Program-made: the position numbers and the translations under genes
Assembly (NCBI RefSeq): GCF_017357425.1
Contig: NZ_CP014571.1
Location: 248,001 to 312,000 of the forward strand
Length of the DNA: 64,000 bases
DNA from: Arthrobacter sp. D5-1
GTDB lineage: Bacteria > Actinomycetota > Actinomycetes > Actinomycetales > Micrococcaceae
Direction of reading: 5' to 3'
Notes under the pieces: model-generated
Databases searched by the model: none
Seen by the model: only the letters and a program-made list of their open reading frames with translations
What the model was told of the DNA's origin: nothing
Shown here: piece by piece, positions 6,337 through 13,855 of the stretch
Layout of the letters: each line of letters starts with the position of its first letter
Position numbering within the stretch: the stretch's first letter is position 1

Positions 6337-6463
6337 TCAAGTTTTTAAGGGCACACGGTGGATGCCTTGGCATTAGGAGCCGAAGAAGGACGTAGGAATC
6401 TGCGATAAGCCTGGGGGAGTTGATAACCGAGCGTTGATCCCAGGATGTCCGAATGGGGAAACC
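6337..6463 (+). rRNA. rrl: 23S rRNA fragment 1 (5' end)
   Basis: The first 127 bases of 23S rRNA, up to GAATGGGGAAACC, a conserved domain I site. The last eight bases GGGAAACC are repeated at 9366-9373 after the nested IS pair. Confidence 0.93.
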
Positions 6464-7179
6464 GGCTCTTCGCGGTTGATGGTGAAACAGGTTCCGTGTC
6501 TTGAAATCTGAAGGGCTCGTAGCCCTGCTGTGATGGATGTTCTCTACGCATTCATCAAGAGTCAGGAGCTACGAGCCTTGAACGAGCCTACTTCGCCGCG
6601 CCCCGATGCTGCCACCGCCATTTTCAACCTGCCCGACTACCGGGTCACCGGCACCGAGGTCCTCGCCTTCGGGCAGCGACGGATCCGCGTCGTGGCCACC
6701 GCCGAGGCCGGCTGCCCGTCCTGCGGCGTGATCAGCACCCGCGTGCATTCACGCCGGTCACAACGCCTGCGTGACATCCCTGTCGCCGGCCCGGTCGAAG
6801 TGGTCTGGGCCAAGCGGAGGTTCTTCTGCGATGAGTACCTGTGCCCCCGCCGGACATTCACCGAGGAGACAGCCGAGGTACCGCGCCGGGCACGGTCCAC
6901 CCGCCGGCTCCGTGAGGCCCTGGTGGCCGCCGTGATCGGTTCCGGGAGGGCCGCCGCCGAGGCTGCCTCTTCATTCGGTGTCTCGTGGTGGCTTGTCCAG
7001 CGGGCACTGGATTCCGCGGCGCTGACGCTGCCCGATGTCGATGCCCTGGCACCGCGGATGCTCGGCATCGATGAACACCGCTACCGGTCCGTGCGGTTCT
7101 TCCGCGACCCTGCCACGAAGGCCTGGAAACGGGCTCTTCGCGGTTGATGGTGAAACAGGTTCCGTGTCTTGAAATCTGA

Positions 7180-7245
7180 AGGGCTCGTAGCCCTGCTGTG
7201 ATGGATGTTCTCTACGCATTCATCAAGAGTCAGGAGCTACGAGCC
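7180..7245 (+). promoter_or_regulatory. Alternative hairpins around the transposase start
   Basis: AGGGCTCGTAGCCCT at 7180-7194 can form a 6-bp hairpin three bases before the GTG start. GGCTCGTAGC at 7182-7191 can instead pair over 10 bases with GCTACGAGCC at 7236-7245 inside the coding region, which puts the start codons in the loop. The same arrangement is in every copy. It could limit translation from outside transcripts. Confidence 0.4.
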
Positions 7246-10263: not shown

Positions 10264-11710
10264 GGCTCTTCACGGTTCGTGGTGAACGTTCTGCCGTGAG
10301 GGATGTTCATGCCGCTGTTCTGGCGGCACTGCGCAACAGGATACGGGTTTTGTAGTTGCGTGCGTTGGTGAATCCCCGACCCGTCCTCTTTATGTGTTTT
10401 ATCGCGGTGTTGTTGGCTTCCACTTTCGCGGTTGTCGCACCGGTGACAATGAGGACTTCGATCTCTTTCCACCACCGGCAGATTGTGCGCCACAGCCGGT
10501 TCGTCTCCGGCTGCGCGGCTCGCTCGACCAGGACCTGCAGCCGGTCCTTCGCGGCGGCAGCGTCGGCAAGAGAGCCGGTAGTCAGCAGGGCCCGGAGCTG
10601 TTCCTTGACCAGCCACGCGGCCTGCAGCTTCCCGGTGACATCGTCGGTCGCGAACACGTTGCTGAGCCTGTCCCGGGCCCGATCCGAGAGCGTGTCCCCG
10701 GCGCGCAGGAGCAGTCGCCGGTTGGCCCAGACCGGATCGATGGAGCGCCCCCGCCGACCATGGGTCTGCTGGGTGAGTCGTTGCCGGACTTCGGTGAGCA
10801 TGTCGTTGCCGAGCTTGACCAGGTGGAACGCGTCGACTGAGACAGCGGTGCGTGGAAGCCACATCCGCAGGGCCTTGCGGAACGCCGCCGAGGGGTCGAT
10901 GGCAACGACCTGCACGCCCAGCCGCCACTGAAGCGGGCGGGCGAACAGCCAGTCTCCTACCCCCTCGCTGTCGCGGCCGTCAACGATCCCGAGGACTTGT
11001 CCGGTGTCGAGATCGACGATGGTGGTCATCCAGGGTTCGTAGCGTTTCCAGGCCTTCGTGGCAGGGTCGCGGAAGAACCGCACGGACCGGTAGCGGTGTT
11101 CATCGATGCCGAGCATCCGCGGTGCCAGGGCATCGACATCGGGCAGCGTCAGCGCCGCGGAATCCAGTGCCCGCTGGACAAGCCACCACGAGACACCGAA
11201 TGAAGAGGCAGCCTCGGCGGCGGCCCTCCCGGAACCGATCACGGCGGCCACCAGGGCCTCACGGAGCCGGCGGGTGGACCGTGCCCGGCGCGGTACCTCG
11301 GCTGTCTCCTCGGTGAATGTCCGGCGGGGGCACAGGTACTCATCGCAGAAGAACCTCCGCTTGGCCCAGACCACTTCGACCGGGCCGGCGACAGGGATGT
11401 CACGCAGGCGTTGTGACCGGCGTGAATGCACGCGGGTGCTGATCACGCCGCAGGACGGGCAGCCGGCCTCGGCGGTGGCCACGACGCGGATCCGTCGCTG
11501 CCCGAAGGCGAGGACCTCGGTGCCGGTGACCCGGTAGTCGGGCAGGTTGAAAATGGCGGTGGCAGCATCGGGGCGCGGCGAAGTAGGCTCGTTCAAGGCT
11601 CGTAGCTCCTGACTCTTGATGAATGCGTAGAGAACATCCATCACAGCAGGGCTACGAGCCCTTCAGATTTCAAGACACGGAACCTGTTTCACCATCAACC
11701 GCGAAGAGCC
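10264..11710 (-). mobile_element. ISL3-family IS, copy 5, complete
   Basis: A complete 1447-bp element, minus strand, inserted about 1.02 kb into the 23S gene. Ends are GGCTCTTCACGG at 10264 and CGCGAAGAGCC at 11710. The exact 8-bp duplication is GCCAAACT at 10256-10263 and 11711-11718. Its orientation is opposite to the nested pair in the same gene, so the copies form inverted repeats about 0.9 kb apart. Confidence 0.97.
10307..11644 (-). CDS. ISL3-family transposase (copy 5)
   Basis: Complete 445-aa transposase with the same domains and catalytic residues as the other full copies. It is transcribed against the rRNA operon, so read-through produces antisense rather than sense transposase RNA here, unlike copy 4. 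Confidence 0.95.
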   Translation of the reverse strand: MMDVLYAFIKSQELRALNEPTSPRPDAATAIFNLPDYRVTGTEVLAFGQRRIRVVATAEAGCPSCGVISTRVHSRRSQRLRDIPVAGPVEVVWAKRRFFCDEYLCPRRTFTEETAEVPRRARSTRRLREALVAAVIGSGRAAAEAASSFGVSWWLVQRALDSAALTLPDVDALAPRMLGIDEHRYRSVRFFRDPATKAWKRYEPWMTTIVDLDTGQVLGIVDGRDSEGVGDWLFARPLQWRLGVQVVAIDPSAAFRKALRMWLPRTAVSVDAFHLVKLGNDMLTEVRQRLTQQTHGRRGRSIDPVWANRRLLLRAGDTLSDRARDRLSNVFATDDVTGKLQAAWLVKEQLRALLTTGSLADAAAAKDRLQVLVERAAQPETNRLWRTICRWWKEIEVLIVTGATTAKVEANNTAIKHIKRTGRGFTNARNYKTRILLRSAARTAA

Positions 11711-13855
11711 GCCAAACTCCGAATGCCGGTAAGTGAGAGCGCAGCAGTGAGACTGTGGGGGATAAGCTTCATAGTCGAGAGGGAAACAGCCCAGACCACC
11801 AACTAAGGCCCCTAAGCGTGTGCTAAGTGGGAAAGGATGTGGAGTTGCGAAGACAACCAGGAGGTTGGCTTAGAAGCAGCCATCCTTGAAAGAGTGCGTA
11901 ATAGCTCACTGGTCAAGTGATTCCGCGCCGACAATGTAGCGGGGCTCAAGTACACCGCCGAAGTTGTGGATTTCACACATTGCCCTAGCCTTCGTGGTTC
12001 AGGGGTGTGGAGTGGTAGGGGAGCGTCGTGTGGGCAGTGAAGTCGCGGTGGAAACCAGCGGTGGAGCCTACACGAGTGAGAATGCAGGCATGAGTAGCGA
12101 AAGACGGGTGAGAAACCCGTCCGCCGAATGATCAAGGGTTCCAGGGTCAAGCTAATCTGCCCTGGGTAAGTCGGGACCTAAGGCGAGGCCGACAGGCGTA
12201 GTCGATGGACAACGGGTTGATATTCCCGTACCGGCGAAAAACCGCCCATGCCAAGCGGGGGATACTAACCGCCCGGAGCCTGCCCGCTCACCCTTGTGGT
12301 GTTGTGGGTTTTGGCCGAGCGCGGGACCTGATCCCGGGAGGTAAGCGTATTAACAGGTGTGACGCAGGAAGGTAGCCGGGCCGGGCGATGGTTGCCCCGG
12401 TCTAAGGATGTAGGGTCAGGGATAGGCAAATCCGTTCCTGTGTGCTTCGAGCACGTTCCTGAGATCTGATGGGACTCCCGTATGGGGGGATCCGGTGATC
12501 CTATGCTGCCTAGAAAAGCATCGACGCGAGGTTTTAGCCGCCCGTACCCCAAACCGACACAGGTGATCAGGTAGAGAATACCAAGGCGATCGAGAGAATT
12601 ATGGTTAAGGAACTCGGCAAAATGCCCCCGTAACTTCGGGAGAAGGGGGGCCTGCCCCGTGATGGAGACTTGCTCTCCGTGAGCGGGTGTGGGCCGCAGA
12701 GACCAGGGGGAAGCGACTGTTTACTAAAAACACAGGTCCGTGCGAAGTCGCAAGACGATGTATACGGACTGACTCCTGCCCGGTGCTGGAAGGTTAAGAG
12801 GACCGGTTAGCCACCTTGTGTGGCGAAGCTGAGAATTTAAGCCCCAGTAAACGGCGGTGGTAACTATAACCATCCTAAGGTAGCGAAATTCCTTGTCGGG
12901 TAAGTTCCGACCTGCACGAATGGAGTAACGACTTCCCCGCTGTCTCAACCATAAACTCGGCGAAATTGCAGTACGAGTAAAGATGCTCGTTACGCGCAGC
13001 AGGACGGAAAGACCCCGAGACCTTTACTATAGTTTGGTATTGGTGTTCGGAGTGGCTTGTGTAGGATAGGTGGGAGACGTTGAAACCCGGACGCCAGTTC
13101 GGGTGGAGTCATCGTTGAAATACCACTCTGGTCACTTTGGACATCTAACTTCGGCCCGTGATCCGGGTCAGGGACAGTGCCTGATGGGTAGTTTAACTGG
13201 GGCGGTTGCCTCCTAAAAAGTAACGGAGGCGCCCAAAGGTTCCCTCAGCCTGGTTGGCAATCAGGTGTCGAGTGTAAGTGCACAAGGGAGCTTGACTGTG
13301 AGAGAGACATCTCAAGCAGGGACGAAAGTCGGGACTAGTGATCCGGCGGTACATTGTGGAATGGCCGTCGCTCAACGGATAAAAGGTACCTCGGGGATAA
13401 CAGGCTGATCTTGCCCAAGAGTCCATATCGACGGCATGGTTTGGCACCTCGATGTCGGCTCGTCGCATCCTGGGGCTGGAGTAGGTCCCAAGGGTTGGGC
13501 TGTTCGCCCATTAAAGCGGTACGCGAGCTGGGTTTAGAACGTCGTGAGACAGTTCGGTCCCTATCCGCTGCGCGCGCAGGAAATTTGAGAAGGGCTGTCC
13601 TTAGTACGAGAGGACCGGGACGGACGAACCTCTGGTGTGTCAGTTGTACTGCCAAGTGCATCGCTGATTAGCTACGTTCGGATGGGATAACCGCTGAAAG
13701 CATCTAAGCGGGAAGCTCGCTTCAAGATGAGATTTCCATACACATTTATGTGTGAGAGGCCCCCAGCCAGACCACTGGGTTGATAGGCCGGATGTGGAAG
13801 CGAGGACTAAAGACTCGTGAAGCTGACCGGTACTAATAGGCCAACAACTTACACC
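11711..13855 (+). rRNA. rrl: 23S rRNA fragment 3 (3' two thirds)
   Basis: Contains most of domains II-VI, including the peptidyl transferase region (GACGGAAAGACCCCG near 13001, GGGATAACAGGCTGATC near 13393) and the sarcin-ricin loop AGTACGAGAGGACCGG near 13604. No further break is seen. The 3' end near 13855 is inferred from pairing with the 5' end. Confidence 0.93.

Follow-up and report, generated by a model that had tools for sequence, protein, structure and literature searches.

How did the 23S rRNA gene of one ribosomal RNA (rrn) operon in Arthrobacter sp. D5-1 come to lie in three pieces, and why is such a gene tolerated? We analysed a window of 64,000 nucleotides that carries this operon, rrn2, and the DNA behind the upstream operon, rrn1. 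Our preferred reading, to which we give a probability of about 0.88 from sequence comparison, is that an insertion sequence (IS) which has recently expanded, and which tends to land at rrn operons, put one of six 23S copies out of use.

Anatomy of the interrupted operon

The 23S gene of rrn2 is cut after nt 129 (site 1) and after nt 1019 (site 2). Its span, 6335-13857, was placed by the ends of the intact rrn1 copy, and the Rfam LSU match also ends at 13857; an earlier note on this DNA had the right gene, with each end 2 bp short. Site 1 holds one ISL3-family copy with a second nested within it (2902 bp in all), and site 2 a single inverted copy (1447 bp). The 8-bp target duplications GGGAAACC, TGGAAACG and GCCAAACT are exact at all three insertions, the nested one included, indicating that each arose by transposition; for exact repeats this long together with exact target duplications, chance is excluded. 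IS boundaries and duplications thus bear out the earlier note's account of one 23S gene interrupted at two sites by three IS copies. The inverted repeats that it had placed about 0.9 kb apart, formed by insertions of opposite orientation, are likewise real, with 790-nt arms and a gap of 898 nt, and a second pair has 1447-nt arms with 1685 nt between them. As the target duplications are exact, the 898 nt that separate the copies have not been inverted.

Table 1. Features of rrn2 and of the insertions behind rrn1, in window positions
Feature	Position	Strand	Remarks
ISL3 copy C1:247272-248718, right part	1..718	+	about 51 bp past the 5S gene of the upstream operon rrn1
ISL3 copy C1:248936-250382	936..2382	-	target duplication AGATACCC (IS orientation); about 260 bp past the rrn1 5S gene, discounting copy C1:247272-248718
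rrn2 leader block	4080..4274	+	5' of 16S; common to other operons
16S rRNA gene, intact	4275..5794	+	Rfam RF00177, 1595 bits; identical in 6/6 operons
23S piece 1	6335..6463	+	nt 1-129; 3' end is target duplication GGGAAACC, E. coli nt 122-129
Outer ISL3-family copy	6464..9365	+	parts 6464-7131 and 8579-9365; part 2 begins with repeated TGGAAACG
Nested ISL3-family copy, full-length, 1447 bp	7132..8578	+	ORF along operon direction
Nested-copy transposase ORF	7198-8535	+	445 aa
23S piece 2	9366..10263	+	nt 122-1019, including duplicated targets at either end; native orientation
Third ISL3-family copy, full-length, inverted	10264..11710	-	transposase ORF 10307-11644
23S piece 3	11711..13857	+	target duplication GCCAAACT (E. 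coli nt 906-913) to 3' end
5S rRNA gene, intact	14012..14128	+	Rfam RF00001, 102 bits
G+C-rich hairpin 3' of 5S	14141..14169	+	putative operon terminator, judged by eye

The 16S and 5S genes are intact, as had been claimed. The rrn2 leader equals that of rrn1 over about 195 bp upstream of 16S and so shows nothing to suggest a lost promoter; a scan of 3900-14300 gave no match to the sigma-70 consensus. A terminator scan of the same interval did not return the hairpin behind 5S, whose tail is T-poor. The operon can probably still yield 16S and 5S rRNA, and any 23S RNA transcribed from it is expected to be non-functional and broken down.

An ISL3-family element and its targets

The element has the features of the ISL3 family: a DDE transposase (PF01610, 1.8e-47, residues 198-435; NF033550, 267.6 bits, cut-off 180) with a zinc ribbon (PF14690, 42.7 bits, cut-off 25.5) and an HTH (PF13542, 28 bits, cut-off 27.4) before the catalytic domain, imperfect terminal inverted repeats (GGCTCTTCGCGGTTGATGG... 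and GGCTCTTCACGGTTCGTGG...) and an 8-bp target duplication. The genome contains 18 copies, 16 full and two split; 15 of the full copies are 100% identical and one has a single difference. ISL3 genes number 18 here, against one to nine in each of 20 relatives, and compared with these relatives only D5-1 has a sense-orientation copy within 23S. Recent multiplication of the element probably produced the 18 copies.

Among 59 distinct sites in the loci retrieved, 44 showed an 8-bp duplication with at most one mismatch; the other 15, whose flanking 8-mers differ at two or more positions, were dropped from the motif. Training on 43 duplications, a set that retains two G177 sites with near-identical surroundings and two nested sites, showed that the element prefers SSTTT(A/T)-like 8-mers; it picks short T-rich targets with G/C flanks. 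The 23S sites, both held out of training (site 2 was left out and site 1 was absent from the rows), rank 5th and 18th among 3151 positions. Two further cues were considered and rejected. Hairpins beside targets outside rrn are only weakly enriched (5/35 versus 16/352, p = 0.03), too weakly for terminator targeting as a general rule. A resemblance between the IS ends and the rrn hairpin, both of which have GGCTCTTC, fails as a target cue because this word is absent from the hairpins of relatives G115, G177 and G178.

Recurrence behind rrn operons

In D5-1, six of the 16 non-nested copies lie within an rrn operon or at most 300 bp past its 5S gene, where 0.11 would be expected in this zone, which was picked after the data were seen. 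Across the 20 relatives, which were chosen for IS presence and few contigs after the rrn-adjacent cases in G177 and G178 were known, 8/69 ISL3 transposase genes lie at most 2 kb downstream of a 23S gene (0.14 expected); by hand count, 4/63 remain in the zone without these two genomes. The same zone holds 3/49 IS256-type genes and, among the matches listed (150 of 199, over 21 genomes), 1/141 rve-type genes. ISL3 genes differ from these listed rve-type genes (p = 0.0007) and not significantly from IS256-type genes (p = 0.36); since the latter share the flank, the landing zone is not proper to ISL3. In the 12 flank cases, counted by hand, the IS runs opposite to the operon nine times and along it three times, which is not significant.

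The element is met repeatedly just behind rrn operons, at distances of a few hundred bp, which the earlier note had not remarked; the probable reason is that DNA past heavily transcribed operons is a favoured target. Insertion could instead be random, with rrn flanks seeming enriched only since an element is harmless there. Three points fit such a safe harbour: redundant operons and spacers can absorb insertions, IS256-type genes lie in the zone as well, and 23S interiors are otherwise clean (0/219 full-length genes interrupted in 44 same-genus genomes). Against it, rve-type genes lack the enrichment, the 4.2 kb upstream of 23S starts in the 20 relatives contain no ISL3, IS256 or listed rve gene, and several insertions strike a TTAAC stretch close 3' of the operon hairpin. 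Random insertion is a live alternative, with the odds nonetheless against it.

A fuller version of the landing-zone reading, which we put forward tentatively and at somewhat less than even odds, is that rrn-downstream DNA is a true landing zone for ISL3-type, perhaps also IS256-type, elements in the genus. It would be set by rrn transcription (supercoiling or gyrase past the operon) together with a TTTAAC-like target by the end hairpin, the 23S hits being rare spill-over. If so, a sense copy inside rrn may have its transposase driven by the strongest promoter of the cell and fuel a burst, an idea that we raise because D5-1 alone has both a sense copy within 23S and the most ISL3 genes. The data point to a target choice by the IS that is linked to rrn operons; such a preference would bear on rrn-mediated rearrangement, assembly breaks and 23S-based copy counts. 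In the open-access literature, with most subscription papers outside this search, we found neither a description of ISL3 elements favouring the flanks of rrn operons nor a case of a single IS interrupting a 23S gene at two sites; the accessible parts of PMC2430713, PMC9176272, PMC10383233 and PMC10763512 hold nothing on point.

Intact copies, relatives and known systems

The genome has six rrn operons. In the other five the 23S genes are intact and mutually identical (3158 nt each), and the three rrn2 pieces occur letter for letter in all of them. Without the IS copies and one duplication apiece, rrn2 is 100% identical to the adjoining rrn1 over 5735 bp. Gene conversion could also have made the pieces identical to the other copies, so that the insertions are no more than probably recent; sequence decay was rejected as a clock, as pieces without differences from the other copies give no date. 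An uninterrupted copy exists in relative G087, reached through its 23S: at the same locus (flanks 95-96%), neither of the two adjacent operons has an insertion at either site. The earlier note had suggested looking for such a copy in close strains. A locus comparison through the downstream LysR-like gene over 59 genomes gave, outside D5-1, short chance matches only.

An assembly artefact, in which the IS copies are not in the rrn2 23S gene or the two sites come from two operons, is improbable: rrn operons and IS copies are indeed repeats longer than many reads, and rrn1 and rrn2 are identical over the stretch given above, but misjoins are not expected to give exact target duplications at every site, the nested one included, and an assembly of three contigs with 100% completeness suggests long reads. 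Bacterial 23S rRNAs with excised intervening sequences are known, and the rrn2 pieces are free of mutation, so that the three pieces might be transcribed, trimmed and assembled into a working split 23S rRNA; this is most improbable, as five intact identical copies make it unnecessary and free the cell from dependence on the fragmented gene, the inserts are mobile elements with transposase genes and not short intervening sequences, no other interrupted copy was seen among the 219 genes, and an Rfam scan of 1-30000 at gathering thresholds returned the three rRNAs alone, with no intron family, which also disposes of a self-splicing group I/II intron or IStron. The earlier note had reasoned that a sole rrn operon would force a functional split 23S; with five more intact copies, it is not forced, and none of our results speaks for it.

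Overall, these data favour a model where three separate transpositions of one ISL3-family element removed the working rrn2 23S gene: into 23S nt 122-129, into that first copy, and, oppositely oriented, into 23S nt 1012-1019. The break is probably retained because the large subunit can draw its 23S rRNA from five identical intact genes. E. coli tolerates loss of rrn redundancy, and growth slows only from the fourth rrn inactivation, according to the accessible part of PMC4683628. As such, the broken gene is ordinary biology, a multi-copy gene tolerating the loss of one copy; rrn2 is also a natural operon predicted to yield 16S and 5S without 23S, which bears on one-sided rRNA supply.

The following comparisons draw on the accessible parts of the papers cited. 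Desulfovibrio hydrothermalis AM13 is described as having '5 disrupted rRNA operons' (PMC3587943), the same term with no cause given there, and probably with another meaning than an IS-broken operon. The disrupted rrn cluster of Sulfitobacter profundi D7 (PMC13386836) likewise has protein genes within the 23S gene of one of several operons; an IS boundary is not reported there, whereas in rrn2 element, ends and duplications are exact. ISArsp7, an ISL3-family element reported on Arthrobacter plasmids (PMC6305408) and compared here by size, left end, gene content and target duplication, has 1451 bp against 1447 here, the left end GGCTCTTCGCGGTTGGTGGTGAAT against GGCTCTTCGCGGTTGATGGTGAAA and, like our element, no passenger genes; its 8-bp duplication CCTTTGCC agrees with our target motif. 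In Enterococcus faecium, an ISL3-associated integration lies 27 bp past a 5S gene in two revertants (PMC11702846). That case involved drug selection, carried plasmid DNA and broke no 23S gene, but it shares with ours an ISL3-family element (there at one end), an 8-bp duplication and insertion at an rrn terminator.

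Structure and redundancy of the interrupted operon

The genome of Arthrobacter sp. D5-1 comprises 5.12 Mb in 3 contigs, and the window corresponds to C1:248001-312000. In rrn2, the 23S gene is cut by two insertions of a 1447-bp ISL3-family insertion sequence (IS). At site 1, a second, complete copy is nested within the element and points the same way; at site 2, one complete copy lies in the orientation opposite to both. The 8-bp target duplications of these three 23S-linked insertions are exact (GGGAAACC, TGGAAACG, GCCAAACT), and the earlier note's reading of three IS copies breaking 23S at two sites proved right in detail. 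The inverted copies have not flipped the 898-nt middle 23S piece: it runs in its native direction, and every duplication still borders the copy to which it belongs.

Features of the rrn2 region and IS copies near rrn operons (window positions unless stated otherwise)
Feature	Position	Strand	Basis or remark
16S gene	4275-5794	+	Rfam scan
Broken 23S gene	6335-13857	+	ends located by comparison with intact copy
23S site 1	cut after nt 129; target duplication nt 122-129 of 23S		E. coli numbering identical by alignment
23S site 2	cut after nt 1019; target duplication nt 1012-1019 of 23S		E. coli 906-913 by alignment
5S gene	14012-14128	+	Rfam scan
Three consecutive alpha/beta-hydrolase-like ORFs	16854-19714	-	named by eye from translations
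IS copy behind rrn1	about 51 bp past 5S
Second IS copy behind rrn1	about 260 bp past 5S		first copy discounted
IS copy behind rrn3	about 279 bp past 5S
IS copy behind rrn5	about 77 bp past 5S

It had been asked whether rrn2 is the sole rRNA operon and whether its fragments might form a working split 23S. The genome carries six 16S genes, all identical, six 5S genes and five further 23S genes, which are full-length Rfam matches of equal score and mutually identical. rrn2 is thus one of six operons and the cell does not depend on its broken 23S; a working split 23S is unsupported. The three 23S pieces occur unchanged in every intact copy, and with its insertions removed rrn2 is identical to the adjacent rrn1 across 5735 bp. 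This identity is consistent with either recent insertion or gene conversion sparing the insertions. The operons include two tandem pairs (C1:241732-262128 and 4330109-4344485), and the 2+1+1+2 layout of 23S genes recurs in the related genomes G087, G035, G003 and G152.

Among 45 relatives compared, G087 has the most similar 23S. It carries the same tandem pair at the same place, with flanks 95-96% identical and both 23S sites empty in both operons, providing an uninterrupted copy in a relative. With up to 15 candidates scored per genome, 219 of 221 23S matches in 44 same-genus genomes were full-length and uninterrupted, the other two ending at a record end or 2 bp short. A 23S match was looked for in the 45th relative (G098, one contig) and none was found; G081, in three contigs, gave a single match. 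Both shortfalls likely reflect masked or collapsed repeats.

The element and its target motif

The 445-aa transposase product combines an ISL3 catalytic domain, a zinc ribbon and an HTH (profile search). Its relatives at 59 loci bear Arthrobacter or Pseudarthrobacter record titles, except two Sporosarcina. D5-1 holds 16 uninterrupted full-length copies and 2 split by a nested copy; among the uninterrupted ones, 15 match the nested copy of rrn2 at 100% identity and one differs by a single base. Outside the window, a second self-insertion, in opposite orientation, lies at C1:3899696-3902597 (loci L011, L025 and L028; duplication TCTTTATG). At C1:23670-26939 (L171), two copies in direct orientation are separated by 376 bp and have a single target duplication in common, CTTAAAAG, at their outer ends, forming either a small composite-transposon-like unit or a recombination product.

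The fetched loci gave 59 distinct insertion sites with both ends, 44 of them with a duplication (at most 1 mismatch), and the motif was trained on 43, with 23S site 2 excluded and site 1 absent from the rows. It is S-S-T-T-T/A-R-S-C-like, with T at position 4 in 42/43. On leave-one-out, 18/43 real sites fell in the background top 1% and 35/43 in the top 5%. Among 3151 positions within 23S, site 1 ranks 5th and site 2 18th, indicating that the IS entered 23S at two favoured short targets. Motif preference alone is no explanation for rrn being hit.

Recurrent landing behind rrn operons

Four further copies sit behind rrn operons. Together with the two 23S sites, 6/16 non-nested copies thus lie in the rrn zone (0.68% of the genome, drawn after the data were seen), against 0.11 expected. 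In 20 relatives selected for IS presence and few contigs, 8/69 ISL3 transposase genes (split pieces joined by script) lay within 2 kb downstream of 23S, against 0.14 expected: one each in G042, G115 and G178, two in G053 and three in G177. The G177 and G178 cases had been noticed before the 20 were picked; without both genomes, a hand count gives 4/63. Earlier counts of rrn-adjacent IS were 2/29 loci and 1/59 loci (Arthrobacter sp. MA-N2).

As comparison, IS256-type genes share the rrn zone (3/49), a proportion not significantly below that of ISL3 (p = 0.36), whereas rve-type genes gave 1/141 among the matches listed (150 of 199; p = 0.0007 versus ISL3). Among the rows counted, no gene of the three families lay within 4.2 kb upstream of the 23S start, a stretch containing 16S and promoter.

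Strong hairpins flank 10/43 targets versus 16/352 motif-matched controls (p = 0.0001). Outside loci labelled rrn-adjacent, enrichment was weak (5/35, p = 0.03), in a set from which neither 23S site 2 nor the rrn3-linked copy had been removed. The hairpin that follows the 5S is absent from the terminator scan's list. A TTAAC stretch precedes the junction in D5-1 rrn1, three G177 cases and one of two G053 cases, directly after a hairpin in G177a, G177b and G053a. At C1:4328585 (L010), a stretch of about 20 bp adjoining the rrn5-linked copy on its left is similar to the left end of the IS (GGATCTTCCCGGTTGATGG); G087 lacks it at the same place. It is perhaps a relic of an earlier ISL3 visit.

Possible causes, consequences and known counterparts

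The sequences establish transposition with target duplication, a target motif, clustering at rrn flanks and operon redundancy. We infer that rrn transcription turns the operon and the DNA behind it into a preferred target. Gyrase action behind transcribed operons may be one physical cause: in E. coli, gyrase cleavage sites are reported to cluster downstream of rrn operons and to be lost with rifampicin (excerpt of PMC6379681). Selection, or gene conversion templated by intact copies, would eliminate most hits inside an operon, in which case 0/219 interrupted 23S genes in standing genomes is the expected outcome.

Since E. coli growth is reported to suffer from the fourth rrn inactivation onward (excerpt of PMC4683628), loss of one operon in six should be mild here. 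Ribosomal subunit imbalance is possible. An rrn2 read-through transcript would hold sense and antisense IS copies and could form long double-stranded RNA, probably an RNase III substrate.

As an event, the broken 23S belongs to a known kind; what deserves follow-up is the repeated landing behind rrn operons. ISArsp7, an ISL3 element of Arthrobacter plasmids, has ends and a duplication close to those of the D5-1 element (PMC6305408). In two Enterococcus faecium revertants, under selection, DNA had inserted 27 bp beyond a 5S gene; the insertion had an 8-bp duplication and, on its 3' side, an ISL3 element (PMC11702846).
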